A DNA stretch of 52,306 nucleotides from Bifidobacteriaceae bacterium (GTDB lineage: Bacteria; Actinomycetota; Actinomycetes; Actinomycetales; WQXJ01), in contig JAITFE010000075.1 of the NCBI GenBank assembly GCA_031281585.1, forward strand, positions 1-52,306, written 5' to 3'. The position numbers and the translations under genes were made by a program. Of this stretch, positions 7,566 through 22,744 are shown one piece after another. How positions within the stretch are numbered: position 1 is the first letter of the stretch; each line of letters begins with the position of its first letter. The notes under the pieces are model-generated. The model was not told where the DNA came from and searched no databases. It saw only the letters and a list, made by a program, of their open reading frames with translations.

Positions 7566-7580
7566 GCGCACCTGGCAGAC
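7566..7580 (+). promoter_or_regulatory. Element leader motif, copy 1
   Basis: GCGCACCTG followed by GCAGAC, 33 bases before the primase ATG. It sits between complementary heptamers CGGTTCG (upstream, about 7549) and CGAACCG (downstream, about 7585), so it could be presented in a hairpin loop. Confidence 0.7.
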
Positions 7581-7613
7581 GGCAGCGAACCGCGCGAACC
7601 GGAGGACGAGAAC

Positions 7614-8552
7614 ATGGACTGGAAGGCCCACGACGAGCACCTGGCGGTGGTCGCCGCCCGGATGTCCGCGATCAGGCGGGCACAAGGCTGGCCGACCGCG
7701 CTGGCCGCCCTGACCTTGGCGCGCTCCGGCGTGCCGGTGTTCCCCTGCGAGCCGGGCGGGAAGAAGCCGTTGACTCGCCACGGCTTCCTGGACGCCTCGA
7801 CCGACGCGGGCCGGGTGGAGGCGTGGTGGCGTCGCCGTCCGGAGGCGAACATCGGCGTGCCGACCGGTGCGGTGTCCGGCCTGGACGTGGTTGATGTGGA
7901 CGTCCGCGGCGGCGGCTCCGGGTTCGACCGGTTCCGGCAGGCCAACGCCCAGGGGGTCGGCGAGGACTGGGCGATGGCGGTGCGGACCCCGTCCGGCGGC
8001 ATGCACTACTACTATCCGTCCAACCCGCAGGCGCCGCGCATGTCGTGGGCGCGCGGCAGCGCCCACGTCGACTTTAGGGGCGCGGGCGGTTACATCATCG
8101 TCCCGCCGTCCCAGATCGAGGTCGACGGGACGCCGGTCAGATACCAGGTGCTCCGCGTCCTCCCGCACGCCATGCCGGTGGACGCCGGACGGCTGCGCGA
8201 CCTGGTCGACCCCGAGGCCGCCCGGCGGCGCATGGCCACGCGGGTCACCCCAGGACGGGTGGCGGCCACGGCCCAGGACTCGGCGCTGGCCCGGTGGGTG
8301 TCGTCGCGTCCGGAGGGCGAGCGGAACACCGGATTGTTCTTCGCGGCGTGCAGGCTCGTGGAGGCCGGGCGGCCCTTCGACCACACCCTGGCGGCGCTCG
8401 CCCCCGCCGCCCAGCGGGCGGGCCTGCTGGATCGTGAGATCACCGCGACCGTCCGATCCGCGTACCGGCGCGCCCACGCTGCCTCAGCGCCATCGGCCCC
8501 GGTGTCGCCGTCGCGGCCTGGGCCGGCAACTGCCGCGGCGGTGGTGTTGTGA
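7614..8552 (+). CDS. Bifunctional primase-polymerase (prim-pol)
   Basis: A 312-residue replication protein that would make primers and extend them on element DNA. Residues about 22-190 match the Prim-Pol domain of plasmids and actinobacterial integrative elements: ALTLARSGVPVFPCEPGGKK, then WWRRRPEANIGVPTG and GLDVVDVDVRGGGSG with the catalytic D-x-D, and VRTPSGGMHYYYP. The C-terminal third is helical, as in PriCT-like tails, and no helicase domain is fused. The ATG is preceded by GGAGGACGAGAAC. It is the first gene of the element unit and carries the element leader motif in its 5' region. Its stop overlaps the next start (GTGTTGTGA). Confidence 0.92.
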   Translation: MDWKAHDEHLAVVAARMSAIRRAQGWPTALAALTLARSGVPVFPCEPGGKKPLTRHGFLDASTDAGRVEAWWRRRPEANIGVPTGAVSGLDVVDVDVRGGGSGFDRFRQANAQGVGEDWAMAVRTPSGGMHYYYPSNPQAPRMSWARGSAHVDFRGAGGYIIVPPSQIEVDGTPVRYQVLRVLPHAMPVDAGRLRDLVDPEAARRRMATRVTPGRVAATAQDSALARWVSSRPEGERNTGLFFAACRLVEAGRPFDHTLAALAPAAQRAGLLDREITATVRSAYRRAHAASAPSAPVSPSRPGPATAAAVVL

Positions 8553-9259
8553 GCAGACCAGGCGACCGGCGGGTGTCGGGTTGGGTTGCGGCCATTGGGA
8601 TCGCCGGCACGGTGTTGCTGGCGGTCGGGGCGTTCTCATTGTCGTTCACGTCGCTGATCCACTTCGCCGTCCGGTTCGGGATCGACCCGGCGCAGGCGTG
8701 GGAGTGGCCGCTGATCGTGGACGGCGTCATCGTCGTCGCCACCGTCTCGGTCGTGGCGTTGGCGGGGAGGCGGGGAACGGGCTACGCCTGGGCGCTGCTG
8801 GCCGCGGGAGCGCTGATGTCGGTCGCGTCGAACGCCGCCCAGGCGTGGCGGCTCGACACGGAGTCCCCGCTGATCGCAGCCGCCGTCGCCACGGTCCCGC
8901 CGGTCGTCCTGCTGGCCGCCACCCATATGACCGTCATCCTCACCCGGTCTGACCAGGAACCAGCCGCCGCGCAACCAGCGCCACCTCCCACATCCGCCAT
9001 CGCGCCGCCGCCGGTCTCCGCGCCAGAGCTCGTCACAGTCCAGAGGAAGCCGTCTTCGCCGCCGTCTGCGCCCGGCGCGGACGCGGCTGGGGACGGGGAG
9101 CGCACCTGGCTGATGGGGAAGGCCCGCCGGATGCGGGCCGACGGGTGGAGCGTCGCGGAGATCGCCGACGACCTGGGCAGGTCGATCGGCACGATCCGCC
9201 GCTGGCTGAAGACCACCGACCAGGCCGGAAACGAGACGACTGGAGAAGACGATGAGTGA
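8549..9259 (+). CDS. DUF2637 membrane protein with C-terminal helix-turn-helix
   Basis: A 236-residue protein of actinobacterial mobile elements. The N-terminal 130 residues hold four hydrophobic helices with the DUF2637 pattern (LSFTSLIHFAVRFGID, then WPLIVDGVIVVATVSVVAL and VASNAAQAW). A Pro/Ala linker follows. Residues about 188-228 form a helix-turn-helix of the spacer type (RRMRADGWSVAEIADDLGRS, then IGTIRRWLK), like those in recombinases. A membrane protein with a cytosolic DNA-binding tail could anchor element DNA near the conjugation pore, but that is inference. The GTG start overlaps the prim-pol stop. The gene also contains an internal copy of the element motif at 9100-9108. Confidence 0.88.
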   Translation: MSRPGDRRVSGWVAAIGIAGTVLLAVGAFSLSFTSLIHFAVRFGIDPAQAWEWPLIVDGVIVVATVSVVALAGRRGTGYAWALLAAGALMSVASNAAQAWRLDTESPLIAAAVATVPPVVLLAATHMTVILTRSDQEPAAAQPAPPPTSAIAPPPVSAPELVTVQRKPSSPPSAPGADAAGDGERTWLMGKARRMRADGWSVAEIADDLGRSIGTIRRWLKTTDQAGNETTGEDDE

Positions 9260-9635
9260 CGACCCGCGAGACCGCCGCCAACAGATGGCCGCAGCCGCCG
9301 AGCGGCCCAGGCCTGCCGCCGAGCAGGAGCCAGCGGCGTTGGCCCGGCATGGCGACCCCTCGGCCAAGAAGGCCGACTCGAAGCAGGCCGCTCGGGGCAA
9401 AGGGTCCGGCATCGAGTGGGTGCGCGTGTCGGACATCCTGGCCGGGCGCGGGCAGCGGCTGGCGGACCTTCACGCCAGCGGACAGACCCGGCTGGTCAAG
9501 CGGATGCGTCACGGCATTGCCCGCGCCGCCACGTCGAGGCGCGGCGCGGCGAACGCCTCCGCGCCGAACCTGCCGCCGGTCACCGCGTTCGGCTCCACCC
9601 CGCCGCAGTCGTCCGCCCAGGCGGTGGGCAGATGA
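9252..9635 (+). CDS. Small basic hypothetical protein
   Basis: A 127-residue polar protein without recognised domain. It begins with an Arg/Gln/Ala-rich stretch, has a central segment IEWVRVSDILAGRGQRLADL and a basic C-terminal half (RLVKRMRHGIARAATSRRG). The composition suggests nucleic-acid binding. The ATG overlaps the end of the DUF2637 gene by 8 bases and its own stop overlaps ATG 9632, so translation is coupled along the operon. Genes of this size and position are common in related integrative elements, but I do not know a function. Confidence 0.7.
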   Translation: MSDDPRDRRQQMAAAAERPRPAAEQEPAALARHGDPSAKKADSKQAARGKGSGIEWVRVSDILAGRGQRLADLHASGQTRLVKRMRHGIARAATSRRGAANASAPNLPPVTAFGSTPPQSSAQAVGR

Positions 9636-9675
9636 CCAGCCAGACCGCGACACATGCAGCGCTCGGAGAAGCGCC

Positions 9676-9690
9676 GCGCACCTGCCAGGC
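9676..9690 (+). promoter_or_regulatory. Element leader motif, copy 2
   Basis: GCGCACCTG followed by CCAGGC, 22 bases before the ATG at 9707 and directly upstream of its ribosome site (AAAGGAGGT). A small hairpin GCGCT/AGCGC precedes it. Confidence 0.68.
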
Positions 9691-9706
9691 GAAAGGAGGT
9701 CATCCC

Positions 9707-10519
9707 ATGACCCAACCCCGAGATCCTTCCTGGGACCGTTTCGCCGATCCCGACTATCTGCGTTCGGCGCTGCTGCGCATCCATCAGAGCGACGACGGGT
9801 GGCGCACCGACCCGGAGGCCGACGAGTTGATACGATACGCCGCCGACCGGTTCGCGGGGCTGGCCCGAAAGCACGGCTTGGAGGAGACCGACGCCATGTC
9901 GGTGGCGTTCGAGGCGATGCGGAACCCGGCCACCCGGTACGGGGCAGCCGACCCGTGGGGTGTGATCGTCCACGCCGTCGCCACCACGTTCCGGGCCTGG
10001 CAGTTCGCCGAGGAGGCCCTGTGCTCGGTCGACACCGCCCGCCGGGGCGGCCTGTCCGGCTGCCGCGCGGAGCGGATGTGCGAACGCGACCAGGTGCCCC
10101 TCGACTGCGACCCGGCGTTCACGCAGGCCGACCCGGAGGCTCCCGGCGGCTGGGACGGGCCGACCGTGTACCAGCAGGCCCGGCACGTCGCCGGGCTGCT
10201 CGCCCGCAACGGCTGGCCGTTCGACTCCGCTCTGTTGGCCGTCGAGGTCGTCCTGCGCAAACTGGCCGACTCCGGGTCGCGCCCCTCGGCGTATGAGGCG
10301 TTGCGGCGGGACCGCAGGTGGCGGTGCGCGGCGGGCATCCCCGCCGCCTCGTGGACCGGCCTGCTGCGCCTGCTGCTGGGCGCCCCGTCGGAAGCCGCCG
10401 CCATGACATCGACCGGGAAGGGCCTGCTGCTGCGGCTCGCTTTGGACGAGGACGTCGAAACCGACCCGGCGGTCGCAGCTGCCATCGCCTTGATCGCCCC
10501 AGGCGGCGGAAGGGCATGA
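9707..10519 (+). CDS. Conserved ICE protein, possibly sigma-region-2-like
   Basis: A 270-residue protein. The ATG at 9707 is chosen over the in-frame ATG at 9632 because an excellent ribosome site (GAAAGGAGGTCATCCC) precedes it and the element leader motif lies between the two. Residues about 35-95 (YAADRFAGLARKHGLEETDA, then MSVAFEAMRN and ADPWGVIVHAVATTFRAWQF) look like region 2 of ECF sigma factors: paired helices with an acidic turn and an ADPW segment. A second helical region (about 155-260) contains no clear region-4 helix-turn-helix. A sigma or anti-sigma-like role is only a hypothesis. The stop overlaps the ParB-like start (ATGA). Confidence 0.75.
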   Translation: MTQPRDPSWDRFADPDYLRSALLRIHQSDDGWRTDPEADELIRYAADRFAGLARKHGLEETDAMSVAFEAMRNPATRYGAADPWGVIVHAVATTFRAWQFAEEALCSVDTARRGGLSGCRAERMCERDQVPLDCDPAFTQADPEAPGGWDGPTVYQQARHVAGLLARNGWPFDSALLAVEVVLRKLADSGSRPSAYEALRRDRRWRCAAGIPAASWTGLLRLLLGAPSEAAAMTSTGKGLLLRLALDEDVETDPAVAAAIALIAPGGGRA

Positions 10520-11592
10520 TCGTGGCGGCGGACAATCTCGGCTTCGAGTGGGCGGTCGACTCGATCATGGTCGGCGCGCGGCACCGCAAAGACTTGGGCG
10601 ACTTGCAGCCGTTGACGGACTCGATCTCCCAGCACGGACTGATCCAGTTGATCACCGTCACCCCTGACGGGGTCCTGATCAGCGGCGCGAGGCGGCTGGA
10701 GGCGATCAAACGGCTGGGCTGGAAGACGGTGAACGTGTGGATCAGGACGGGCCTGTCCGACCGGCTCACCGCGTTGATGGCAGAACGGGACGAGAACTTG
10801 TCGCACAAGGGGTTCACGAAGACCGAGTTGGCTGAGTTGTACGAGGAGTTGAAGGACGTCGTCGCCGAGGAGGCCGCCCGCCGCCAGCAGGCCAGCCGTT
10901 TCGGGGCCGAGCCGGAGACCGGCCCGCCGGGCGGCGCCGCTAATCTAGCGGCGCCGTGGGAGGGACGCTACGACTCCCGCCGCAAAGCCGCCGACATGAT
11001 CGGGACCGGCGCGTCCCACATGACGATGGAGAAAGTCCTGGCGATCAAGCAGATCGCCGCCGACACGACCCGCCCCCAGGGGCTGCGGGACCAAGCCGCC
11101 GAGGCTGTCGCGGAGATCGACGCCGGAGGGCCGGTCGACCCCCAGTTCCTGCGGCTGCGGTCCCTGGTCCGCATCGACGACCTGGAACGCATGGCCGCCG
11201 ACGCGGGCGAACCAGACCCGGTCAGGGGGGCCGCGAGAGCCGGGGCGATCCTGCTGCGGAAACTGGAGGACACCCAGCCGATGACCCCAGCCGACCTGGA
11301 CAAAGCGGCAAAAGCCGCTCTCGACCGGGTCAAAGCCGCCCGGCGGGGCCGCAAACCTGTCCCCGAACCCAAACCGGCGAAGCCGGAGCCGGGGCCGAAG
11401 ACCCGGTCGGTGAAACAGTTCATCTGGACGTGGAACGAGATGAGCGACTGGCCGCAGGAGTACGACGTCGCCGCCGTCGCTGAAGCCCTCTCCGACAAGC
11501 AGTGGCAGCAGTTCAAAAAGACCATGGCCGACGGCCAGGCCTTCCTCGACCGGGTCGCCGCGGCCAGAGCCGGACTCGGGCTCAGCGCCTGA
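10516..11592 (+). CDS. ParB-like nuclease-domain protein
   Basis: A 358-residue protein for element partition, copy control or transcription. Residues about 10-90 form the ParB N-terminal domain: LGDLQPLTDSISQHGLIQLI, then TVTPDGVLISGARRLEAIKR (the GxRR box). Residues about 95-215 carry a helical DNA-binding region with RRKAADMIGTGASHMTMEKV, resembling the helix-turn-helix of element-borne ParB proteins. The C-terminal part is a charged linker (GRKPVPEPKPAKPEPGPK) and a last helical module with KQFIWTWNEMSDWPQEYD. The usual ParA partner is not seen nearby. It overlaps the preceding gene by 4 bases and is followed by a strong hairpin terminator. Confidence 0.9.
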   Translation: MIVAADNLGFEWAVDSIMVGARHRKDLGDLQPLTDSISQHGLIQLITVTPDGVLISGARRLEAIKRLGWKTVNVWIRTGLSDRLTALMAERDENLSHKGFTKTELAELYEELKDVVAEEAARRQQASRFGAEPETGPPGGAANLAAPWEGRYDSRRKAADMIGTGASHMTMEKVLAIKQIAADTTRPQGLRDQAAEAVAEIDAGGPVDPQFLRLRSLVRIDDLERMAADAGEPDPVRGAARAGAILLRKLEDTQPMTPADLDKAAKAALDRVKAARRGRKPVPEPKPAKPEPGPKTRSVKQFIWTWNEMSDWPQEYDVAAVAEALSDKQWQQFKKTMADGQAFLDRVAAARAGLGLSA

Positions 11593-11606
11593 CGACAACA
11601 CGGGCA

Positions 11607-11636
11607 GCGGGCCGCCCCCATCGCGGGGCGGCCCGC
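11607..11636 (+). terminator. Hairpin terminator after the ParB-like gene
   Basis: A perfect 12-bp stem, GCGGGCCGCCCC / GGGGCGGCCCGC, with a 6-base loop, begins 14 bases after the stop codon. There is no clear U-run, as is usual for actinobacterial terminators. It separates the replication/partition unit from the mating-pore unit. Confidence 0.75.
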
Positions 11637-11655
11637 ATTGGTGTTGGCGGGGGCG

Positions 11656-11664
11656 GCGCACCTG
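11656..11664 (+). promoter_or_regulatory. Element leader motif, copy 3
   Basis: GCGCACCTG, 40 bases before the ATG at 11705. The extension is weaker here (GGTTCT). The following GGGTTC is complementary to GAACCC just before the ATG, so the start region could be folded. Confidence 0.65.
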
Positions 11665-11704
11665 GGTTCTTGACAGACCAGCCGAGCCGAGGAAGAGGAA
11701 CCCG

Positions 11705-12382
11705 ATGCGCCACACCGACCCAGACCAATACCATGGCCACAGACCGTCGAAGAGGCTCGGTGCCGTCCTCGCCGTCGTGGCCCTCGGCGCGGCCGTCGGC
11801 GTCGGAGCCTACGGCCTGCTCCTCAAACCACGCTCGGAGCCGCGGCCCCAGCCCGCGCCCACGGCTACGGCCACGGCGTCGCCAGCGCCCACCCCGGCCA
11901 TGACGCCGCCCCCGGCGCCGCAGCGCGACCCGGAGGCGTTCGCCACCAGGGTCGCGCATCTGCTGTTCGACTGGGACACCCTGGCCACCAGCCCCGCCGC
12001 CATTAAAGAGACCCTCATCGGATTGGCCGACCCGACCGGCGACGAGACCGCCGGACTGGCCTCCGACCTCGGCAACTACCTGCCCGACGCCACCACCTGG
12101 GCCAAACTGCGCCGACACGGGACCCGTCAGAGCCTCGACATCGGGTCGGTCGCCGAGCCCGCCTCGTGGCAGACCGCCCAGGCCGACGCGCAACCGGGGG
12201 CGATCCTGCCTGGCACCGCCGCCTACACCATCGCCGGCGCCCGCCACCGAGAAGGCGTCTGGCAAGACCAGCCCACCAGCAGCGACCACGACGTGTCGTT
12301 CACGGTCTTCGTCACCTGCGCCCCGTCGTTCCCGGAATGCCACCTGATGCGCCTGTCCCAACTGGACAACCCGCTGAACTGA
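11705..12382 (+). CDS. TcpC/VirB8-like conjugation membrane protein
   Basis: A 225-residue bitopic membrane protein. One transmembrane helix lies at about residues 18-40 (LGAVLAVVALGAAVGVGAYG). It is followed by a Pro/Thr/Ala linker (about 45-75) and an extracytoplasmic domain of about 150 residues starting near FATRVAHLLFDWDTLA. This layout matches TcpC/VirB8-type scaffold proteins with an NTF2-like domain, which assemble the mating channel. Two cysteines (VTCAPSFPEC) near the C-terminus could form a disulphide. The assignment rests on topology and position beside the M23 hydrolase rather than on strong motifs. The ribosome site is GGAAGAGGAA. Confidence 0.72.
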   Translation: MRHTDPDQYHGHRPSKRLGAVLAVVALGAAVGVGAYGLLLKPRSEPRPQPAPTATATASPAPTPAMTPPPAPQRDPEAFATRVAHLLFDWDTLATSPAAIKETLIGLADPTGDETAGLASDLGNYLPDATTWAKLRRHGTRQSLDIGSVAEPASWQTAQADAQPGAILPGTAAYTIAGARHREGVWQDQPTSSDHDVSFTVFVTCAPSFPECHLMRLSQLDNPLN

Positions 12383-12389
12383 GGCACCC

Positions 12390-13562
12390 GTGAAGAAGAC
12401 CGCGCTCGTTCTGGCCGGGCTGCTCATGGTCGGCCCAGCCCTGCCGCTCCTCGCGGTCGCCTGCCTGATGAACCCGGCCGCTAAAGCCACCTGCGCCACC
12501 GTCACGCTCACCGTGGGGGCGATCCCGGAGTCCCTCACCGCCACGGACAGCGCCGGGGTGTCGGTCACGCTGAACCGGAAACAACTCGGCCACGCGGCCA
12601 CGATCATCACCGTCGGCGGGCGCACCCCCGGCGTCGACCGCGACGGCGTCGTCATCGCCCTGATGGCCGCGCTGACCGAGTCCCGGCTGCGGATGCTCGC
12701 CAACACGTCGGCCTACCCCGAATCCGCCGACTACCCGAACGACGGCGACGGGTCCGACCACGACTCCCTCGGCCTGTTCCAGATGCGCCACGCCTCCGGC
12801 TGGGGAACCGTCGAACAACTCATGGCCCCCGTCTACCAGGCACGCGCCTTCTACGGCGGGCAAACCGGACCCAACCACCCATCGCCCCGAGGGCTGCTCG
12901 ACATCCCCGACTGGAAGACCATGCCCAAAGGAGCCGCCGCCCAAGCCGTCGAAGTGTCCGCCTACCCCGACCGGTACGCCAACTGGGAACCCGTCGCCAA
13001 CACCATCCTCGCCGCGCTCACCAGGCCCGCCGCGCCCAACAACGGCGGCGGGACAGCGGACCCGAGCGTCCCGGAGACCGGGAGCGTCGTGTTCCCCCTC
13101 CCGGCGGGAACATGGGTCAAGACGTCGGGCTTCGGGATGCGCGTCAACCCCGTCACCGGCGTGTACACCCTCCACGCCGGAACCGACTACAGCGCACCCG
13201 ACGGCACACCGATCCTGGCCGCTGCCGACGGCACAGTCACGTTCTCCGGGCCGCGCGGCGGTTACGGCAACGCCATCCTGATCAACCACACCGTCGACGG
13301 CAAGCTGGTCGCTTCCCTTTACGGGCACATGTGGGACGGCGACCTCTACGTCAAAGCCGGGGACCGTGTCGTCGCCGGGCAGCACATCGCCGACGTCGGC
13401 TCCAACGGACGTTCCACCGGCCCCCACCTGCACTTCGAGATCCGCCCCAACAGCGACTACAACGAAGTCACCGACTCCGACGTCTGGCTCGCCCAGCACG
13501 GCGCGGCCACCATGACCGACCCGACCGCCAACGCGGGCGGCTGCTACACAGGAGGGAACTGA
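12390..13562 (+). CDS. Exported M23 peptidase with lysozyme-like region
   Basis: A 390-residue cell-wall hydrolase that would open peptidoglycan for the mating channel (VirB1-like role). It has an N-terminal signal peptide or membrane helix (about 1-28). Residues about 70-200 resemble the transglycosylase/lysozyme-like fold of conjugative elements (GVVIALMAALTESRLRMLAN with a candidate catalytic Glu, then SLGLFQMRHASGWG). Residues about 230-370 are an M23 endopeptidase with zinc ligands in HAGTD and HLHFEIR and the GFGMRVNPVTG approach. It carries two different peptidoglycan-cleaving folds in one chain. It lies 8 bp after the TcpC-like gene. Confidence 0.92.
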   Translation: MKKTALVLAGLLMVGPALPLLAVACLMNPAAKATCATVTLTVGAIPESLTATDSAGVSVTLNRKQLGHAATIITVGGRTPGVDRDGVVIALMAALTESRLRMLANTSAYPESADYPNDGDGSDHDSLGLFQMRHASGWGTVEQLMAPVYQARAFYGGQTGPNHPSPRGLLDIPDWKTMPKGAAAQAVEVSAYPDRYANWEPVANTILAALTRPAAPNNGGGTADPSVPETGSVVFPLPAGTWVKTSGFGMRVNPVTGVYTLHAGTDYSAPDGTPILAAADGTVTFSGPRGGYGNAILINHTVDGKLVASLYGHMWDGDLYVKAGDRVVAGQHIADVGSNGRSTGPHLHFEIRPNSDYNEVTDSDVWLAQHGAATMTDPTANAGGCYTGGN

Positions 13563-13563
13563 T

Positions 13564-13821
13564 ATGGCCCCAGACTTCTCAGCCGTCGGCGGCAACACTC
13601 TCGCCGCCATTGTCGGGGCGCTGCTCACCATCGTCCTGATCGCAGCCGTCGCCTCCCTGATCGCCTCCGCGATCTGCTGGGCTGTCGGCGAAGCCCAAGG
13701 CAACTACCAGATGGCTGCGAAAGGCAAGACCGGCGTGCTCATCGCCCTCGGCGCCGCCGCTGTCGCCGGGGCGGGCGTCTCATGGGCCAATTTCTTGATC
13801 CACGTCGGAGAGCAGTTCTAG
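13564..13821 (+). CDS. DUF6112-type small membrane protein 1
   Basis: An 85-residue protein with two long hydrophobic helices (about 14-42 and 55-78). The pattern of DUF6112 proteins in actinobacterial ICEs is visible: a Gly/Ala-rich polar start, TLAAIVGALLTIVLIAAVAS, then a GKTGVLIA turn and WANFLIHVGEQF. Size, two-helix topology and position just before the TrbL-like gene resemble TrbC/VirB2 pilin-type or channel subunits, though that function is unproven. It starts 2 bp after the M23 stop, and a paralogue occurs at 14524. Confidence 0.8.
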   Translation: MAPDFSAVGGNTLAAIVGALLTIVLIAAVASLIASAICWAVGEAQGNYQMAAKGKTGVLIALGAAAVAGAGVSWANFLIHVGEQF

Positions 13822-13974
13822 GCCTCCCGCCTCTGTGAGCCGGCCAGGGCGGATTGCAATTCGCGGCAGACGAGGGCTGGTCGGCGGGTGGCGCTCTCGG
13901 CGCGGCCCCGCCTGCACCTCGCGCAAGTCATCCTGGCGCGGAGGATTCGGGTGCCCAAAACCACAGATGTCGGA

Positions 13975-14307
13975 TCATTGCTGGGCCGCCGGTTCCGCCA
14001 GGCGGGGCCGTGAGGTCCGGGACAGCCTGTCCCGGGCGAGCATCGCGACTCCCCATGGGCCGATGGCGAGCAGCCGCATTCCGTCGACGATCAGGACGAC
14101 CACCGCGAGATGCAGCCAGCCGCTGCCGCCACGGCTGATCACGCTGGTCAGTGTCGCGGCGGCGAGGAAGCAGAGCAGGCCGAGGGCCGCGGCCGGGACG
14201 GCCCATCTCAAGGGATGCGCGCGGACGCGGGGGATGAGCTTGCTGGCGGGGGTGTGGCCCCACAGCCGGTAGAGGGCGGCGGCGAGGCGGATGCCGAGTC
14301 GGAGCAT
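13975..14307 (-). CDS. Antisense-oriented small membrane protein
   Basis: A 110-residue protein on the opposite strand to every other element gene. It reads MLRLGIRLAAALYRLWGHTP, then ASKLIPRVRAHPLRW and two hydrophobic helices (about 37-58 and 65-92). It has a GGAAGG ribosome site 7 bases before its ATG. I recall similar short membrane proteins from related actinobacterial elements, but no function. It lies between the two DUF6112 genes, convergent with the first. It could be an entry-exclusion or immunity-type protein because such genes often sit apart from the transfer operon; that is speculation. Confidence 0.65.
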   Translation of the reverse strand: MLRLGIRLAAALYRLWGHTPASKLIPRVRAHPLRWAVPAAALGLLCFLAAATLTSVISRGGSGWLHLAVVVLIVDGMRLLAIGPWGVAMLARDRLSRTSRPRLAEPAAQQ

Positions 14308-14454
14308 TGTCGTGCCTTCCGTGTCGTGCTGGTCGAGGCAGTCACCTGGGTTGGCCCCGGTGGAGCCGGTCGTCCGTCTTCGTTATCCCCGCTCGCCTTC
14401 GGCGGGGCAAAGCCTCTGGCCAACACAATGCCCGAACGGGCGTGGGGCAGTCCA

Positions 14455-14469
14455 GCGCACCTGCCTGGC
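14455..14469 (+). promoter_or_regulatory. Element leader motif, copy 4
   Basis: GCGCACCTG followed by CCTGGC, 60 bases before the ATG at 14524. Flanking CGGGC (14438-14442) and GCCCG (about 14471-14475), and inner GGCAG/CTGCC, allow nested stems around the motif. Confidence 0.7.
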
Positions 14470-14523
14470 GGCCCGGAGCGACCCAGCTTCCGGATGCGAA
14501 CGACAAGCAAAAGAGGTACAAGC

Positions 14524-14847
14524 ATGCTGACCAGGCTCTGGCACGCCGCGCTCCCCGCCATCGGTCTGCTGCCGATGGACATCAACATCTCCCCGAACGA
14601 CAACGGTCTGCCCGGCATCTCCCAGTTGAAGACCATCGTCGGCGCCGTCATGACCGTCGGCCTGATCCTGTCGGTGCTGGCCCTGATCATCTCGGCCATC
14701 GTGTGGGGCCTCGGAGCCAACTCCAGCAACCCGCACCTCGCCAGCCGGGGCAAGCTCGGTGTCATCGTGTCCTGCGCGGCGGCGATCATCTGCGGCGCGT
14801 CCGTCACTCTCATCAACTTCTTCTGGAACGTCGGCCAGTCCGTCTGA
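14524..14847 (+). CDS. DUF6112-type small membrane protein 2
   Basis: A 107-residue paralogue of the protein at 13564. Two hydrophobic helices (about 37-65 and 77-100) have the same order of features: GLPGISQLKTIVGAVMTVGL, a NSSNPHLASRGKLGVIVS turn and a terminal LINFFWNVGQSV that parallels WANFLIHVGEQF in the first copy. It has an extra 20-residue N-terminal segment. A candidate mating-channel subunit; two copies may form a hetero-oligomer or serve at different steps. It has its own leader motif and an AGAGGTACAAGC ribosome region. Confidence 0.8.
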   Translation: MLTRLWHAALPAIGLLPMDINISPNDNGLPGISQLKTIVGAVMTVGLILSVLALIISAIVWGLGANSSNPHLASRGKLGVIVSCAAAIICGASVTLINFFWNVGQSV

Positions 14848-14876
14848 CCCGGTCGGGCTGATGTAGGGGTTCGTTC

Positions 14877-14939
14877 TAGTTGGCCAATCGACCGGCATAG
14901 TTGGCCACCAGTTGGCCATTGACCGCCCAGTTGGCCATT
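14877..14939 (+). repeat. Iteron-like AGTTGGCCA direct repeats (4 copies)
   Basis: AGTTGGCCA occurs at 14878, 14899, 14910 and 14929. Two copies are extended to TAGTTGGCCA and two to CAGTTGGCCATT. All are in the same orientation within 62 bases, in a locally AT-richer patch. Each contains the palindrome TGGCCA. It looks like a protein-binding array (origin, oriT or operator). Confidence 0.8.
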
Positions 14940-14974
14940 CCGAGCATTGCGCAGGAGCAGGCCCATCGCCGACC

Positions 14975-14994
14975 GGGCCGTACATCAACGGCCC
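14975..14994 (+). terminator. Short hairpin (possible terminator or oriT stem)
   Basis: A perfect 7-bp stem GGGCCGT/ACGGCCC with loop ACATCA, 36 bases after the repeat array. It could terminate the DUF6112-2 transcript or be a structural part of a transfer origin. Confidence 0.5.
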
Positions 14995-15047
14995 CCCGCA
15001 AGGCGGCCGTGGCCGCGAAACCGCAGATGGAGCCCCTGGTTGCGGCC

Positions 15048-15056
15048 GCGCACCTG
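15048..15056 (+). promoter_or_regulatory. Element leader motif, copy 5
   Basis: GCGCACCTG without the extended half (GAGAGA follows). It lies 239 bases before the TrbL-like ATG, the longest spacing of the set. GCGGC before it and GCCGC after it could pair. Confidence 0.55.
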
Positions 15057-15294
15057 GAGAGAAGCGCCTCACCCGCCCGGGCGGGGACCGCCGCGGGACC
15101 ACTCCAATAAGCGAGGCGGACGCGGCCGGGGGCTGGCGTCCACGACTGAAGAAATGGACAACTGCGATGCGTGTTCCACCTCGACCCGACCACCAGGGCG
15201 AGACTGCCACCTGCGGCAATACGGTCACCAGTGGTCAACAACCTGGTCATGGTGGCCAAATCCATTGAATTCCTACAGCTGAGAGGAGCAGACG

Positions 15295-16674
15295 ATGGGG
15301 GTTTGCGACGTTCCGGGCGTCTCATATGTGTGCGACGCGGTCGGCGACGGTGTCGCCACGTTGGTGTCGGCGCCGTTCGACTGGCTCGCCTCGGCGATGG
15401 GGTCGGCAGCCGGGTGGGTGTTCGAACAGGTCTGGACCGTGTTCGACACCACCACCATGGTCGACGTGACCAACTCCGGCTACCGGCAGGTCTACGCCCT
15501 GGTCTTCGGGGCCGCCTGCTTCCTGATGCTGATCTTGTTCTGCTTCCAACTCGTCGCCGGGCTGATACGACACGAACCCGCCGCCCTGGGACGCGCCGCC
15601 ACCGGGCTGGCCAAGTCCGTCCTCGGGAGTTTCCTCGTCTTGGCCGTGACCGGTCTGCTGTTGGAGGCGACCGACCAGTTGTGCGTCGGGATCGTGCAGG
15701 CGACCGGGAACACGATGGAGTCCATGGGCGGCAGGATCGCCGTCCTGGCCGCCGGGCTGACCGCGATCAACATCGCCGCTCCCGGCGTGGGGGCGATCAT
15801 CACGATCTTCCTGGCCGGGCTGGCCATCACCTCCGCCCTGGTCGTGTGGTTCTCCCTGCTCGTCAGGAAGGCGCTGCTGCTCGTCGCGGTCGTGTTCGGG
15901 CCGTTCGCGACCGCCGGATGGTCCTGGGACGCCACCAAGGGCTGGTTCTCCAAATGGGCCATGTTCGTCATCGCCATGATCCTGTCGAAGCTGGTCCTCG
16001 TCGTCACCCTCCTGGTCGCCGTCACCCAAACCGCCTCCCCGATAGACCCAGACCTGCAATCGGTGTCGGAGCCGGTCGCGGGCGTCGTGTTGATGATGAT
16101 TGCCGCGTTCGCCCCCTACATGAGCTACAAGTTCATCTCCTTCATGGGAGCCGACATGTACCACCTGATGAGCGCCGAGCGAGAAGCCAAATCAGCCATG
16201 AACCGGCCCATCCCGGCGCGCCCCCAGGCCTCCAACCCGTCCAACATCCTCGGCGGCAACGGCACCAGCTCCAGCAGCACCGGGGGCGGCGGCTCGACCC
16301 CGCCGCCCGCCTCGCCCAGCGCGGGCTCCGGCGGGGGTAGCGCGTCGGCGGGCGCGTCCAGCGGCGGTGCGGCGGCAGGCGGATCGGCCAGCGCCGGTGC
16401 CAGTTCTGCCGGCGCGGGTGCCTCCTCGGGCGGCGCGGCAGCCGGGGGCGCAGCCGCTGCCGGTCCAGCGGCAGCCGTGATCATCGGGGCGCAGGTCGTC
16501 AAGGGGGCGGCCACCGCCGGGCCGAAAGCCGGGGGCGGGGTCGGCGGCGCGGCCACCGGGCAGACCGACGCCGCCCAGGCGACCCCGCCGACCGCTCCGG
16601 CCACCACGTTCACGCCGACCTCCAGCACACCGCCGCCGCCCGAACCCCCGGCGCCGGCGCCGCAGGGGGCGTAG
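15295..16674 (+). CDS. TrbL/VirB6-like conjugal transfer membrane protein
   Basis: A 459-residue polytopic membrane protein of the mating channel. After a Cys-containing start (MGVCDVPGVSYVCDAVGDG) come about six hydrophobic segments (about 65-90, 100-120, 145-165, 168-200, 220-250, 260-285), with VVFGPFATAGWSWDATKGWF as the typical conserved loop of TrbL/VirB6-like proteins. The last 150 residues are a low-complexity Gly/Ser/Ala/Pro tail, probably disordered and cytoplasmic. A GAGAGGAGCAGACG ribosome site supports the ATG at 15295. It is followed after 3 bp by the SCO6880-like gene. Confidence 0.88.
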   Translation: MGVCDVPGVSYVCDAVGDGVATLVSAPFDWLASAMGSAAGWVFEQVWTVFDTTTMVDVTNSGYRQVYALVFGAACFLMLILFCFQLVAGLIRHEPAALGRAATGLAKSVLGSFLVLAVTGLLLEATDQLCVGIVQATGNTMESMGGRIAVLAAGLTAINIAAPGVGAIITIFLAGLAITSALVVWFSLLVRKALLLVAVVFGPFATAGWSWDATKGWFSKWAMFVIAMILSKLVLVVTLLVAVTQTASPIDPDLQSVSEPVAGVVLMMIAAFAPYMSYKFISFMGADMYHLMSAEREAKSAMNRPIPARPQASNPSNILGGNGTSSSSTGGGGSTPPPASPSAGSGGGSASAGASSGGAAAGGSASAGASSAGAGASSGGAAAGGAAAAGPAAAVIIGAQVVKGAATAGPKAGGGVGGAATGQTDAAQATPPTAPATTFTPTSSTPPPPEPPAPAPQGA

Positions 16675-16677
16675 CCG

Positions 16678-18144
16678 ATGGCCCAGACCACGAAAGACCG
16701 CGACGGCTACGACCTGAACCCGGTCAAGTTCAGCCGCCTGTCGAAACGCGGGCTGCTGCTCGGCCTGTCCGGGCCGCAACTCGCCTGCCTCGGCCTCGCG
16801 GCTGCCGTGATGGTCGCCGCCCTGTACACCGGAGGGGCGGCCGCGTTCACGGTCGCCGCCGTCGTCTGGCTGCCCGCCTGCTGCCTCGCCCTGATCGGCG
16901 TGGCGGGAAGGAAACTCATCGAATGGGCGCCCGTCATCATCCGCTGGCTCACCCGCACCCACAAGGGACAAACCATGTTCAAGAAGACAATCGCCAAACC
17001 CCGCCCCGCAGGCACCCTGTCCCTGCCAGGAGACGCCGCCGCGCTACGCCAACACCAAGACCCCGCCACCGGGGCCGTCATGGTCCACGACCCCCACGCC
17101 CAAACCCTGACAGCGGTGGCCGAGGTCACCCACCCGTCATTCGTCCTGCTCGACCCCGCCGAACAGGAACGCCGCGTCCAATCCTGGGGCCGGGTCCTGG
17201 CCACCTGCTGCCGCGCCGGGCGCATCGCCCGGCTCCAAGTCCTGGAGCGCACTCTGCCGGATTCCGGCTCCGGCCTGATCGACTGGTGGCGGCTCCACGG
17301 CACCGACGACGGCTCCTGGACCGCCAAGGTCTACCGGGACCTGGTCGACCGCGCCGGACCCGCCTCCGAACGCCACGCCACCACGATCTCCGTCGCGCTC
17401 GACATGCGGCTGGCCGCCAGGGCGATCCGGGGCGCGGGCGGCGGGATGCGCGGAGCCGCCTCCGTCCTCGGCCAAGAGATGAACACCCTCGCCACCGCCC
17501 TGCGCAGCGCCGACCTCAACCTAGGCGAATGGCTCGGCCCCGGTCGGTTGGCGCTCATGCTCCGCGCCGCCTACGACCCCGAATCCGCCACCCGCCTCGA
17601 ACGCAACCGGGCCATCGGACGCGACCTGTCCAATGCCGGGCCGGTCGCCGTCCACGAGTCCTGGGCGTCCATGCGCACCGACACCGCCTTCCACGCCGTC
17701 CTGTGGGTCTCGGAATGGCCGCGCGCCCAAGTCTTCCCCGGCTTCCTGTCGCCCCTGCTGCTGTCGTGCGGCATCCGACGCACCTTCTCCTTGACGGTGA
17801 CGCCGATGCGGGCCGACCAGGCCGCCCGCGACATCCGCAGGAAGAAGACCGAGCACATCGCCGACCAGGCCCAACGCGCCAAGATCGGCCAGATCGAGGA
17901 CGCCGCCCAAACCGCCGAATACCACGACGTCCTCCAACAAGAAGCCGACCTCACATCCGGCCACGGCATCGTCCGCTACACCGGCCTGATCACCGTCTCT
18001 GCCCCGTCCGAACCGGAGTTGCAAGCCGCGCTCGCCGCCATCGAACAAGCCGCAGTCCAAGCCTCCTGCGAGACCCGCACGCTCGTCGGCCAACAGGCCC
18101 AAGGCTTCACCGTCGCCGCGCTACCTCTATGCAGGACGGTGTGA
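16678..18144 (+). CDS. SCO6880-type conjugation protein (PrgI/VirB3-VirB4N-like)
   Basis: A 488-residue protein. It begins with two transmembrane helices (about 30-52 and 56-78; GLLLGLSGPQLACLGLAAAV), resembling PrgI/VirB3-type subunits. About 390 soluble residues follow, matching the SCO6880 family of actinobacterial type IV secretion clusters. This part resembles the N-terminal domain of VirB4 proteins, including the TAVAEVTHPSFVLLDPAEQE region and VTPMRADQAARDIRRKKTEH. The ATPase domain itself is on the next gene, so VirB3 and VirB4 functions seem split differently from the classic system. The next gene starts 2 bp after its stop codon. Confidence 0.87.
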   Translation: MAQTTKDRDGYDLNPVKFSRLSKRGLLLGLSGPQLACLGLAAAVMVAALYTGGAAAFTVAAVVWLPACCLALIGVAGRKLIEWAPVIIRWLTRTHKGQTMFKKTIAKPRPAGTLSLPGDAAALRQHQDPATGAVMVHDPHAQTLTAVAEVTHPSFVLLDPAEQERRVQSWGRVLATCCRAGRIARLQVLERTLPDSGSGLIDWWRLHGTDDGSWTAKVYRDLVDRAGPASERHATTISVALDMRLAARAIRGAGGGMRGAASVLGQEMNTLATALRSADLNLGEWLGPGRLALMLRAAYDPESATRLERNRAIGRDLSNAGPVAVHESWASMRTDTAFHAVLWVSEWPRAQVFPGFLSPLLLSCGIRRTFSLTVTPMRADQAARDIRRKKTEHIADQAQRAKIGQIEDAAQTAEYHDVLQQEADLTSGHGIVRYTGLITVSAPSEPELQAALAAIEQAAVQASCETRTLVGQQAQGFTVAALPLCRTV

Positions 18145-18146
18145 CC

Positions 18147-19631
18147 ATGCCCAGCAACGATCACGTCCACGCAGCAGTCCTGGTCAGGCCCCCCAAACAG
18201 CTTCGCCGCGACCGCAAAGCGCAGGAGCGGGCCGCGCGTCAAGCAGTTGTCGACGGCGAGCGCGCCCAGAAAGCTCAGCAGCGCGCCCTTCTGGAGGCCG
18301 CGCGCCAGGAAACCCGCGAGGCCACCTATCTGCCTGCCGCTGGGGAGCCGGGAACGGCCCAGCTACGCACGCCGGGCCGGTTGCGTCTGCCGCAGCATCA
18401 GGACACCACAGCCACGCTTGGCGGGGCGTATCCGTTCTTGGCTGAGGGGGGCTTGGGGTCTGACGGGGTGTTCGTCGGGCAGGACATGTTCGGCGGGGCG
18501 TCGTTCGTGTACGACCCGTGGGTGCTGTACCGGGCCGGTCTCATCACCGCCCCGAACATCGTCCTGGCGGGGATCGTCGGCTCCGGGAAGTCATCCCTCG
18601 CCAAGTCCCTCTACACCCGCTCCATCCCTTTCGGCCGCAGAGTGTACGTTCCGGGCGACCCGAAGGGCGAGCACACCGCCGTCGCCGAAGCCGTCGGCGG
18701 CAAAGCTATCCGGCTCGGCCACGGCATGGCCGCCCGGCTGAACCCCCTGGACGAGGGATACAGGCCCGGCCACCTGTCGGACGTGGAGTGGCGGGCGCAA
18801 GTCGCATCGCGCCGACGCGACCTTATCGGCGCTTTGGCTGAGACAGTCCTGGATCGCCCGCTGGCCCCGCTGGAGCACACCGCCATCGATGTCTCCCTGG
18901 TCTCAGCGGTCGGTGCGTGCGACGTGCCGATCCTGCCGATGGTCGTGGACCGGGTTCTCGCCCCGGACCGGCGCGACGACCCGGACGGGAGGCTGACCGA
19001 GGACGGCAGGCAGGTCGGCCACGCCCTGCGGCGCCTGGTCGCCGGCGACCTGGCGGGTCTGTTCGACGGGCCGTCCACCGTCAGGTTCGACCCGAGCCTG
19101 CCGATGGTGTCCCTCGACCTGTCGCGGGTGGCTGAGAACTCGACCCTGATCAGCGTGTTGATGACGTGCTCGTCGGCGTGGATGGAGTCCGCGCTCCTGG
19201 ACCCGGACGGCGGGCAACGCTGGGTGATCTACGACGAGGCGTGGAGGCTGATGTCGCATCCCGCCCTGTTGCGGCGGATGGACGCGCAATGGCGGCTGGC
19301 CCGGCATTACGGGATCGCGAACATGCTGATCTTCCACAAGCTGACCGACCTGGACAACGTGGGCGACCAGGGCACCGCTATGCGCGCCCTCGCCTCGTCG
19401 CTGCTGGCGAACGCGGAGACCCGGATCATCTACCGGCAGGAGTCCGACCAGATGACAGGCACCGCCGAGACCCTCGGCCTGACCGGAACCGAGATGCGGC
19501 TCTTGCCGACCCTGTCGACCGGGCAGGGGTTGTGGCGGATCAAGGATCGTTCCTTCGTAGTCGCCCATCAGCTCCACCCTGACGAACTCCGGCTGTTCGA
19601 CACGACTTCCAAGATGTTGGGGATCTCCTGA
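18147..19631 (+). CDS. VirB4/TraC-like conjugation ATPase
   Basis: A 494-residue cytoplasmic ATPase powering pilus/channel assembly. A charged coiled-coil start (residues about 10-55) leads into the P-loop AGIVGSGKSSLAKSLYTR (about 135-150). Then come GDPKGEHTAVAEAVGG and the Walker B strand RWVIYDEAWRLM (about 355-366), and finally RRMDAQWRLARHYGIANMLI, typical of VirB4/TraC ATPases. ATG 18147 follows the previous stop by 2 bases and gives MPSNDHV; an in-frame ATG at 18129 is an alternative. A longer open frame upstream is a shadow of the SCO6880-like gene. Confidence 0.92.
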   Translation: MPSNDHVHAAVLVRPPKQLRRDRKAQERAARQAVVDGERAQKAQQRALLEAARQETREATYLPAAGEPGTAQLRTPGRLRLPQHQDTTATLGGAYPFLAEGGLGSDGVFVGQDMFGGASFVYDPWVLYRAGLITAPNIVLAGIVGSGKSSLAKSLYTRSIPFGRRVYVPGDPKGEHTAVAEAVGGKAIRLGHGMAARLNPLDEGYRPGHLSDVEWRAQVASRRRDLIGALAETVLDRPLAPLEHTAIDVSLVSAVGACDVPILPMVVDRVLAPDRRDDPDGRLTEDGRQVGHALRRLVAGDLAGLFDGPSTVRFDPSLPMVSLDLSRVAENSTLISVLMTCSSAWMESALLDPDGGQRWVIYDEAWRLMSHPALLRRMDAQWRLARHYGIANMLIFHKLTDLDNVGDQGTAMRALASSLLANAETRIIYRQESDQMTGTAETLGLTGTEMRLLPTLSTGQGLWRIKDRSFVVAHQLHPDELRLFDTTSKMLGIS

Positions 19632-19657
19632 GTTCCGCTGACCGCTGGCGGCGGGAC

Positions 19658-19672
19658 GCGCACCTGGCAGGC
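19658..19672 (+). promoter_or_regulatory. Element leader motif, copy 6
   Basis: GCGCACCTG followed by GCAGGC, 58 bases before the GTG at 19725. A strong hairpin follows (GGGG-a-CGCGGC/GCCGCG-CCCC, about 19678-19704) between the motif and the ribosome site GGAGGA. Confidence 0.7.
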
Positions 19673-19724
19673 ACGAAGGGGACGCGGCATCCGGGCCGCG
19701 CCCCGTGAAGCCTCTGGAGGAACC

Positions 19725-20414
19725 GTGTCCGATCCGTTGTACGCGCCGTGGAAAGAAGGCGATCCCATCGCCACGGTGACCATGTCCGAGCCCGACCTGA
19801 TGAGCGTGCGCCTGCTCGGCATCCCCTACCAGGCGCCCGCCGACTGGCTGCCGCTGAAGCGGACGGACTTCGGTAAGGTGATGGACCACATCTACACCAA
19901 GTACCCGATGCCGTTCACCTGCGAGATCATCGAGACCGATGGCACACGCACCACCGGCGTCGTCGACCTGACCGACACACCCGCCGCCACAGCGCCGACG
20001 CAGGCCGCTCAGCACGCCCGGCAGGCGCACCCCAGCCACGCCGCACCGCCTCCCGCCCAGCCTGTCGGCGAGCCGACGCCCGAGGCGTCCTGGGTCCGCC
20101 TCCTGGACGAACCCGAACCCGCCCCCATACCGGAAGCGTCGGGGCTAGGGGCACGGCTGGAGTCTTTACTCGGCCTGCCTGCGCTGCCGCCCCGGCGCCG
20201 CGAGGGGGAGGCGGTGGTTGCCGCCTACGGGTTCGAGCCCGGCGAGCAGGTCGCCGTGGGCCTGGTAGTCGGGCACGTCGCCGCCGACCACCAGGGGCGC
20301 GCGGCGGTGACCCTGCCCTCCTGGGTGCTGGCCAACCTGGTGACCGGGGAGGCCGTCCTGGCGGGTCTGGCGTCGGCCCGGTCCAGTGTCGTGCGCGGCG
20401 ACGCGGGCCGATGA
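19725..20414 (+). CDS. Hypothetical element protein
   Basis: A 229-residue protein of no recognised family. The first 80 residues look globular (PLYAPWKEGDPIATVTMSEP, then RLLGIPYQAPADWLPLK and DHIYTKYPMPFTCEIIETDG). A Pro/Ala-rich linker (about 85-145) follows, then a second small domain (about 150-229; EGEAVVAAYGFEPGEQVAVG) that ends in an Arg/Ala tail. The GTG start has a good GGAGGAACC ribosome site. It lies between the VirB4-like ATPase and the coupling protein and overlaps the latter's ATG by 4 bases, so a role in substrate recruitment to the coupling protein is possible but unsupported by motifs. Confidence 0.7.
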   Translation: MSDPLYAPWKEGDPIATVTMSEPDLMSVRLLGIPYQAPADWLPLKRTDFGKVMDHIYTKYPMPFTCEIIETDGTRTTGVVDLTDTPAATAPTQAAQHARQAHPSHAAPPPAQPVGEPTPEASWVRLLDEPEPAPIPEASGLGARLESLLGLPALPPRRREGEAVVAAYGFEPGEQVAVGLVVGHVAADHQGRAAVTLPSWVLANLVTGEAVLAGLASARSSVVRGDAGR

Positions 20415-22174
20415 GCCAGGCCCCCGTACCCGCCGGGCGCGACGCGCTGGCGAACCTCGGGATCGGCCTGCTGCTCGCCATCGGCCTGCTCGGCCTCGTG
20501 CTGCGCGGCGCGGGCAGCCTCGCCTGCCTGATCACCGGCCACGACCAGCCCACCGGATCGTGGGCGTCCGGCCTCCTCATCCTTGCCCGCCCCACCCACC
20601 CAGGGACAGTGATCGGAGCGGAAGGCCTCCACCCGGTCATGTACTGGCTGGTGGCCTGCGTCCTGCTATCCGCCCCGGCCGTCGGGGGCGTGTGGCTGTG
20701 GCGGGTGGTCCGCGACCACTCGCGCCGGGCCAAGGTCGACCCGCGCCGGATCGCCGGGACCGCCACGCGCGACGAGATCCGGATGCTCGCCTCATCCAAA
20801 GCCCTGCTCAAACGCGCCGGAACGCTGCGCCCGTCCGTCCCGAAACCCCAGCCGACCGATGTCGGCTACCTGCTAGGCACCAGCCACGGGGCTGGCGTGT
20901 GGGCGTCGGTCGAGGACTCGATCCTGCTGATCGGGCCGCCCCGGTCGGGCAAGGGACTGCACATCGTCATCAACGCCATCCTGGACGCGCCCGGCGCTGT
21001 CGTCACCACCTCGACCCGCCCCGACAACCTGACCGCCACTATGAGAGCCCGTCAGAAGGCTGGCCCGGTGGCGGTGTTCGACCCGCAACAACTCGCAGAG
21101 GGGCTGCCCGCCGGTTTGCGCTGGTCGCCCGTGCGGGGCTGCGAGCAGCCGTTGACGGCGATGATCCGGGCAACCGGCCTGGCGTCGGCTACCGGGATCG
21201 GCGGCGGCGGGGTCGAGAACGGCGGCTTCTGGGAAGGCAAGACCCGAGTCGCGCTGCAGTCCCTGCTCCACGCCGCCGCCCTCGGCCAGCGGGACTCCGC
21301 CGAACTGTTCCGCTGGACCCTGGACCCGAACTCCGCCAACGACGCCGTCGGCATCCTGCGCACCAGCCCCGACGCCGCCACAGGCTGGGCTGAGGCCCTC
21401 GACGCCACCATCCACGCCGACCCGCGCACAAGAGACTCCATCTGGCAAGGAGTGTCCCTGTCGTTGTCGGCCCTGGCCGATCCGAGGGTGTTGGCGGCCG
21501 TGTCGCCCGGCAAAGGCGAAACATTCGACCCGGCCCGGTTCCTCCTAGACCGGGGCACCCTCTACCTGCTCGCCACCGGCGCTGGGGCCGGCGCGTCGTC
21601 GGCCCTGGTGGCGGCGTTCATTGAGGACCTGGTCGAGACCGCCCGGAAACTCGCCGCCAGGTCGCCTGGCGCGCGCCTCGACCCGCCCCTCACCCTGGCG
21701 CTGGACGAGATCGGGAACCTCGCCCCGTTGCCCTCGCTCCCGGTGCTGATGGCCGAGGGCGGGGGCACCGGGATCACCACTCTGCCAGTGCTCCAGTCCT
21801 TGGCGCAGGCCAGACAGAAATGGGGCCAGAACGCCGCCGGAGCGATCTGGGACGCCAGCATCGTCAAGATCATCCTCGGCGGCGCGTCCAGCCCGACCGA
21901 CCTGCGCGACATCAGCACCCTGATCGGGGAACGGGACGAGACCACCACCAGCGACACGATCAACGAGCAAGGCTTCACCTCGACCCAACGGTCGATCCGG
22001 CGGGTGCCGGTCATGCCACCGGAGACCGTCAGAACCCTGCCGTTCGGCACCGGCGTCATCCTGCTGCGCACCACCCGGCCCATCATCGCCGACCTACGTC
22101 CCTGGCCGTCTCGCCCGGACGGCAAACAACTCGCCGCCGACCGCCAGGCGGTCGAGGCGTCCCTCCACCCGTGA
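20411..22174 (+). CDS. Type IV coupling protein (TraG/VirD4 family)
   Basis: A 587-residue inner-membrane ATPase that brings the DNA-protein substrate to the secretion channel. Two N-terminal transmembrane helices (about 15-38 and 77-98) are followed by the ATPase: Walker A ILLIGPPRSGKGLHIV (about 172-187), Walker B LTLALDEIGNLAPLPSLP (about 430-447) and the TraM-recognition/TraG C-terminal region (GGGTGITTLPVLQSLAQARQ). Membrane helices plus the TraG-type ATPase argue for single-stranded DNA transfer rather than the FtsK-like double-stranded transfer of streptomycete elements. It should therefore need a relaxase, and none is recognisable here. Confidence 0.94.
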   Translation: MSQAPVPAGRDALANLGIGLLLAIGLLGLVLRGAGSLACLITGHDQPTGSWASGLLILARPTHPGTVIGAEGLHPVMYWLVACVLLSAPAVGGVWLWRVVRDHSRRAKVDPRRIAGTATRDEIRMLASSKALLKRAGTLRPSVPKPQPTDVGYLLGTSHGAGVWASVEDSILLIGPPRSGKGLHIVINAILDAPGAVVTTSTRPDNLTATMRARQKAGPVAVFDPQQLAEGLPAGLRWSPVRGCEQPLTAMIRATGLASATGIGGGGVENGGFWEGKTRVALQSLLHAAALGQRDSAELFRWTLDPNSANDAVGILRTSPDAATGWAEALDATIHADPRTRDSIWQGVSLSLSALADPRVLAAVSPGKGETFDPARFLLDRGTLYLLATGAGAGASSALVAAFIEDLVETARKLAARSPGARLDPPLTLALDEIGNLAPLPSLPVLMAEGGGTGITTLPVLQSLAQARQKWGQNAAGAIWDASIVKIILGGASSPTDLRDISTLIGERDETTTSDTINEQGFTSTQRSIRRVPVMPPETVRTLPFGTGVILLRTTRPIIADLRPWPSRPDGKQLAADRQAVEASLHP

Positions 22175-22196
22175 CCCGCCCAAAAGGAGACCGCCA

Positions 22197-22661
22197 ATGG
22201 CCGTCAACACGCATCAGTCCTTGTCGGGGTTCGTCGCCTCCGAACCAGTCATCTCACCCGACGGCGACACCCAACGCCTCGACATGACCGTCGGCCAGGC
22301 CCGCCACGCCCGCACCCCGGATGGAGGCGTCGTCCGCGCCGAACCAGACCTGTGCCACCTTGTCCTGAAGGGCGTGCCCGCGATCCGAGCCGCCGGGCAG
22401 TTCCGCGTCGGCGACCAGTTCATCGCCGAAGGGCGCATGGCCGAGGAGAAGGTGTGGAACGCCGACACCGGCCAGTCCGAACTGCGGCCCGTGTTCCACG
22501 CCAGCCGCATCGGCCCCGACACCGCCTCCACCACCTACGAGTTGCTGTTCCAGCGCCGCATCCACCCCAAGCACGCGCCCCTGCGCGGCACCGCGGGGCC
22601 GTCCCAGCCGACCGGGGCCACACCAACGCCACCGTCCCAGCCTCCGGCCTTGTCGCTTTGA
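22197..22661 (+). CDS. Single-stranded DNA-binding protein, paralogue 1
   Basis: A 154-residue OB-fold protein of the SSB type. Residues about 5-110 show SLSGFVASEPVISPDGDTQR, RLDMTVGQARHA, LVLKGVPAIRAAGQFRVGDQ and FIAEGRMAEEKVW, the strand pattern of SSB with a divergent core. The C-terminal tail is Pro/Thr-rich and lacks the acidic DDxPF-type tip, so it may not recruit host replication proteins. The ribosome site AAGGAGA is 9 bases before the ATG. It would protect the transferred strand together with the paralogue at 22745. Confidence 0.85.
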   Translation: MAVNTHQSLSGFVASEPVISPDGDTQRLDMTVGQARHARTPDGGVVRAEPDLCHLVLKGVPAIRAAGQFRVGDQFIAEGRMAEEKVWNADTGQSELRPVFHASRIGPDTASTTYELLFQRRIHPKHAPLRGTAGPSQPTGATPTPPSQPPALSL

Positions 22662-22681
22662 CCTGGCGGTTGGGGCGGGCG

Positions 22682-22696
22682 GCGCACCTGCCCGGT
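22682..22696 (+). promoter_or_regulatory. Element leader motif, copy 7
   Basis: GCGCACCTG followed by CCCGGT, 54 bases before the ATG at 22745. Outer heptamers CGGTTGG (about 22667) and CCAACCG (about 22709) are perfectly complementary. Compared with CGGTTCG/CGAACCG in copy 1, they keep pairing while changing sequence. Confidence 0.72.
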
Positions 22697-22744
22697 GATC
22701 GCGGCCGCCAACCGGGCGGTCGCCCCGAGCATGAGGAAGACCAG

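Follow-up and report, generated by a model that had tools for sequence, protein, structure and literature searches.

The conjugative element and its motif copies

The window, i.e. the whole stretch of DNA that was analysed (52,306 nucleotides from a Bifidobacteriaceae bacterium), contains at about 7.5-26 kb a conjugative element whose genes specify Prim-Pol, DUF2637, ParB-like, M23, two DUF6112, SCO6881, SCO6880, VirB4-like, TraG and SSB proteins as well as a serine recombinase. The serine recombinase gene (24206-25972) is overlapped at its 3' end by a minus-strand tRNA-Leu gene (25873-25956), which likely marks an attachment end of the element; a search between the two ends of the element for a direct repeat of at least 14 bp, which could represent the attachment site, revealed none.

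The sequence GCGCACCTG is present in nine copies in the window, all of them on the + strand, compared with 1.6 copies expected on both strands. Seven of these were reported in a preliminary description of this DNA, and all of them were recovered where it had placed them; its statement that every gap of the element longer than 60 bp, except the one before the recombinase, carries a copy also holds, based on the gene calls. The ninth copy, at 1359, is in coding DNA outside the element. From the leaders of related elements, the full form of the motif is YSGGG-N7-GYGCACCT[GT]-NCTG-N-YR, which is 29 bases long and of fixed spacing, with GCGCACCTG as its core. When the window was scored by a matrix built without it, six copies reached scores of 18 or higher (matrix positions 22684, 9678, 9102, 14457, 7568 and 19660; scores 18.0-24.0), the best antisense score being 14.0. 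The well-formed leader copies are found 29-67 bp from the start codon.

The first copy within the element (7554..7582, + strand; score 20.8 with the window left out), consisting of the YSGGG box, the core GYGCACCTG and the YR step, precedes the Prim-Pol gene (7614-8552), and its transcript start is predicted at 7581. The preliminary description had overlooked the next copy (9088..9116, + strand; score 22.8), whose GCGCACCTG core at 9100 (matrix position 9102) lies within the DUF2637-HTH gene, in its 3' part, and 150 nt before the gene 9252-9635, which is just upstream of the sigma-like gene; the place of this copy is kept in relatives, as counterparts near the end of the DUF2637-HTH gene are seen in L116, L119, L122 and L142. 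An in-frame ATG at 9131, after this copy, would give a 42-aa protein containing only the HTH, and the copy may serve either this protein or the 9252 gene, the product of which could, as a guess, be an anti-sigma factor. The copy at 9664..9692 (+ strand; score 23.9) precedes the gene for a divergent sigma-like protein of 270 aa (9707..10519, + strand), which shares an operon with the ParB-like gene (10522..11592, + strand). A transcript from this copy is predicted to begin GAAAGGAGGUC, and the orthologous leaders form GCACCUGCCUGUCAGGAGGUGC.

Before the TcpC-position gene (11705-12382), a terminator-like 12-bp GC hairpin with a ATTGGTGTTG tail (11607..11636, + strand) ends 7 nt before a weak copy (11644..11672, + strand). 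This copy, included with the others in the preliminary description, scores only 8.7; the equivalent gap holds a strong copy in L011, L012, L019, L027 and L050. A further copy (14443..14471, + strand; score 22.8) is located before the second DUF6112 gene (ATG at 14524; DUF6112 match). The leader position ascribed to the copies applies to most of them; however, the degenerate core copy at 15036..15064 (+ strand; score 13.5) is 245 nt from the next start codon, that of the SCO6881-family gene, and it lacks the YR step. This copy is probably not functional. The remaining copies precede the gene 19725-20414 (19646..19674, + strand; score 18.0) and the SSB gene (22745-23179; Pfam SSB match), where the copy at 22670..22698 (+ strand; score 24.0) is also matched by the covariance model (E 0.045).

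Conservation of the motif in related elements

A homologous set of 80 loci was fetched around relatives of TraG, and 65 non-redundant leaders were aligned on GCACCT, this hexamer itself being the selection criterion. In these 65 leaders, the upstream box YSGGG occupies positions -14..-10, with a G at -12 in 94% of them, and conserved bases continue downstream to +14, including a near-universal YR at +12/+13 (60 of 65 leaders; a purine at +13 is present in 64 of 65). In the gap behind traG and before the SSB gene, the motif is conserved in many actinobacterial genera. Scanning the 80 loci with one locus left out each time gave 126 sense and 9 antisense hits with scores of at least 16, and 107 of the 126 sense hits (85%) were intergenic although the intergenic share of the DNA is about 10%; both of these counts are inflated by near-identical loci. 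At least one hit scoring 12 or more was found in 47 of the 53 fully covered homologous loci, and the hits in relatives precede the same genes in each element, viz. the TcpC-position gene, the second DUF6112 gene, the MPTF gene and the SSB gene.

With the matrix frozen, a held-out set of 30 loci around Prim-Pol relatives gave 30 sense hits (three of which are the window's own copies, scanned for comparison) versus 1 antisense hit at scores of at least 16, and 15 versus 0 at scores of at least 20. When sites were chosen by the core only, in the Prim-Pol-relative loci and 30 further loci, none of which were used in building the matrix, the sense:antisense ratio was 65:6, and these sense sites showed G at -12 in 88%, YR in 89% and a purine at +13 in 97% of cases. 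Based on these results, the signal is real, conserved and specific to the element. The earlier proposal of an element-wide, strand-fixed motif located in leaders is thus upheld, in homologous elements as well, and the motif is far rarer in their coding DNA than in leaders. One of the loci, L041, comes from a record titled Stenotrophomonas maltophilia P13; it carries this actinobacterial element with its motif copies, probably due to contamination of that assembly.

Three other candidate explanations were tried and rejected. A host-wide regulon is not indicated, as in 396 genomes of the phylum the strict pattern has only scattered matches, mostly single ones, with none in this genome; of the 5 matches to a related pattern in this 4-Mb genome, 4 are within the element. 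For a phage motif, viral contigs contained 0 and 5 scattered matches. For a small RNA that would act in trans by complementarity to the motif, CAGGTGC occurs on the + strand of the element only at 8145 and 10091, both intragenic.

Pairing with the Shine-Dalgarno and a candidate reader

In many relatives, the 3' half of the motif (CCTGNCTGRC) forms base pairs with the Shine-Dalgarno (SD) that follows it, changes on one side being compensated on the other, and because of this pairing their leaders can hide the SD. By direct count, changes on both sides were found at 5 of the 7 pairs of this stem, with 15 such cells and none as extreme in 500 shuffles; when arms were swapped among leaders in an alignment-free manner, arm/SD complementarity gave z -6.7 (0 of 5000 swaps; z -1.9 for a reversed-arm control), and both the shuffles and the swaps remove relatedness only in part. 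RNAalifold on a MAFFT alignment gave no structure, because the inner hairpin was misaligned; the count above was made directly on the outer stem. A covariance model found the leaders almost exclusively on the sense strand. The predicted openness of the SD was lowest with the arm (0.32), as against 0.41 with a shuffled arm and 0.48 for the sequence from +13 on. Among the leader types of the relatives, the best covariation is seen in the SSB type, to which the window copy 22670..22698 belongs. However, the window's own leaders show only a small difference in openness, little hiding of the SD and weak covariation, and most of the window copies, like the MPTF-gene class, lack the hairpin that pairs with the SD.

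A hairpin with covariation had been suggested earlier from two heptamer pairs flanking motif copies. Both pairs are present in the window, but the adjoining YSGGG box gave no signal of pairing within the leader in relatives, and the covariation that exists, which is strong in relatives, involves the 3' half of the motif and the SD region rather than these heptamers. In agreement with the earlier remark that the motif was not recognised as a named one, Rfam gave no match beyond chance in the element up to an E of 5, and none in the leaders of 8 homologous loci. In the Prim-Pol leaders of L123, L125 and L143 (minus strand), the anti-SD arm can pair either with CGACCAGG or with the SD stretch GAGGTGC but not with both at once, an arrangement that looks like a two-state switch.

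The candidate reader of the motif is the product of 9707-10519, relatives of which were found in all of the 28 relative genomes searched. Its AlphaFold2 model (pLDDT 82.8, pTM 0.50) gave structural matches with Z of at least 5 to 13 chains, all of which are sigma factors. However, the top Z of 5-10 is middling for helical proteins, and the Foldseek E is >0.5. Pfam gave no match for the protein and no Sigma70_r2 match among 27 family members; the family also had no match to PDB sequences and none by hhalign to the sister plasmid sigma. In distant sister plasmids an annotated sigma factor is present behind DUF2637 or in that region, and in a Citricoccus sister plasmid it is next to DUF2637 and has a Pfam Sigma70_r2 match. 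From the fold matches and the presence of a sister-plasmid sigma in the same region, weighed with the Foldseek and profile results, this modelled protein is a likely but still putative sigma factor.

Possible functions of the motif

Taken alone, the covariation would favour a structured RNA, and compensatory changes in a conserved stem, as found in structured cis-regulatory leaders, are observed in relatives though weakly in the window. However, since the window copies are mostly free of hairpins and the YSGGG box is unpaired, pairing by itself is insufficient to explain the motif. The reading that best accounts for most of the observations is a promoter to which the hairpin adds a second layer. 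It is favoured by the unpaired box at fixed spacing, the YR step, abutting terminators, the hairpin-free copies and the sigma-like protein encoded by the element. We consider that there is about an even chance that the motif serves as promoter for a divergent sigma factor encoded by the element, with an overlapping arm that hides the SD. The choice offered in the preliminary description, between a structured RNA and a regulator site, is thus partly borne out, as the covariation is real in relatives, but a promoter better explains the motif itself.

In such a promoter, GYGCACCT[GT] would occupy positions -15..-7 and YSGGG positions -27..-23, and the first transcribed base would be the purine conserved at +13, which follows a pyrimidine conserved at +12; such a pyrimidine-purine step is usual at bacterial start sites. 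Boxes of fixed spacing with YR at the right distance, as in sigma-dependent promoters, are indeed found. For the 9707-type gene, the +13 purine of the leaders is also the first base of the SD AGGAGGUG, with which the predicted transcript would open. In several units, including that at 11607-11636 in the window, terminator-like hairpins lie upstream of the motif with their ends 7-20 nt from it, and because these abut the motif there is no space for another promoter in those units; perfect stems of at least 9 pairs within 20 nt of the motif number 3 versus 0.12 expected, with imperfect ones also present, this being a small subset. No sigma-70 consensus promoter was found in the element. Promoter copies would be repeated before each translationally coupled group of genes, and the product of 9707-10519 would switch on the transfer regulon, its own gene included. 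A hairpin with the SD in its 3' arm would, in many relatives, have its 5' arm encoded immediately before the start; transcripts reading in from upstream would fold and hide the ribosome-binding site, whereas those from the motif's own start would lack the 5' arm and be translated. More tentatively, and with somewhat less than even confidence, in a whole family of actinobacterial conjugative elements a single 29-bp non-canonical promoter module with its own sigma factor may serve both to start the transfer genes and, by its anti-SD arm, to silence read-through from the host chromosome. However, canonical -35/-10 spacing is not seen, as YSGGG ends 7 nt before the core and the two boxes are closer together than those of usual sigma-70-family promoters. 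Further, the most conserved block doubles as the anti-SD arm, the window's own leaders hide the SD but little, and the 9707 protein has the null profile results and middling Z noted above.

The main rival, which we regard as rather unlikely, is that the motif is a cis-acting RNA leader within the productive mRNA and that the transfer genes are controlled at translation, a trans-acting factor (protein or RNA) reading YSGGG-N7-GYGCACCUG and opening or closing the SD hairpin. The covariation of the 3' half with the SD in several leader classes and the location of leaders within co-directional runs of genes agree with this, as does the fixed strand, which such control requires; but many copies lack SD pairing, the upstream box is unpaired, and the abutting terminators leave those units without an upstream promoter. 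An improbable alternative is a DNA operator at host-sigma promoters for an activator or repressor of the element, such as the ParB-like protein (10522-11592), an alternative candidate regulator, or the DUF2637-HTH protein. One site per unit, the DNA-binding repertoire of the element and the precedent of SetCD in SXT, which acts at promoters with poor -35 and -10 elements (PMC4344509), are in accordance with it, but the motif is asymmetric and strictly oriented, and no host-type -10 is present at a fixed distance. Coincidence of composition or phylogeny in GC-rich DNA, although single copies of the strict pattern are present in other genomes of the phylum, is exceedingly improbable in view of the strand and location bias in held-out loci.

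Parts of the promoter reading have parallels in other systems. In the IS10 transposase gene and T4 gene e, hairpins hide the ribosome-binding site in read-through transcripts, and transcripts starting inside the hairpin lack its 5' arm so that only read-through messages are silenced; here, in contrast, one element has the arrangement in many of its units, each time coinciding with a shared motif. Phage sigma factors of the T4 gp55 type, to which PDB 7d7c among the structural matches of the 9707 model presumably belongs, provide a case of a mobile element supplying a divergent sigma for its own short promoters, but the sequence, promoter and host differ, and the present element is conjugative and not a lytic phage. 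The motif differs also from two repeated signals described in the literature. In the SXT/R391 ICEs, the FlhCD-like activator SetCD is likewise a master regulator encoded by the element, with one shared box per transfer operon, placed either across the -35 of a host-sigma promoter or immediately before it (PMC4344509), whereas the candidate regulator of the present element is sigma-like, and the motif reaches the presumed start site and has an SD-pairing arm. The start-associated sequences of cluster K mycobacteriophages (5'-GGGATAGGAGCCC, with an SD-like part) are similarly asymmetric repeats of fixed orientation before many genes, some with inverted repeats (PMC3203893); however, they lie 3-7 bp from the start codon, where the window motif does not place GGGATAGGAGCCC, and the motif is unrelated to them in sequence and placement (29-67 bp). 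No paper on the control of SCO6880-type conjugative elements was found in the library searched, and how these actinobacterial elements are kept silent and jointly switched on seems little studied. A shared signal and a named candidate protein make this regulation directly testable, and the motif also provides a sequence handle for transfer units in unannotated elements.

In the Citricoccus sister plasmid, a motif comparable to that of the window was sought and rejected, as only two copies of GGGGNNNNGCGAACTG are present (L182:8353 and L182:18130). The first of these is in the gap behind the sigma gene, and in its leader TGTCCTC pairs with the SD stretch GAGGACA.
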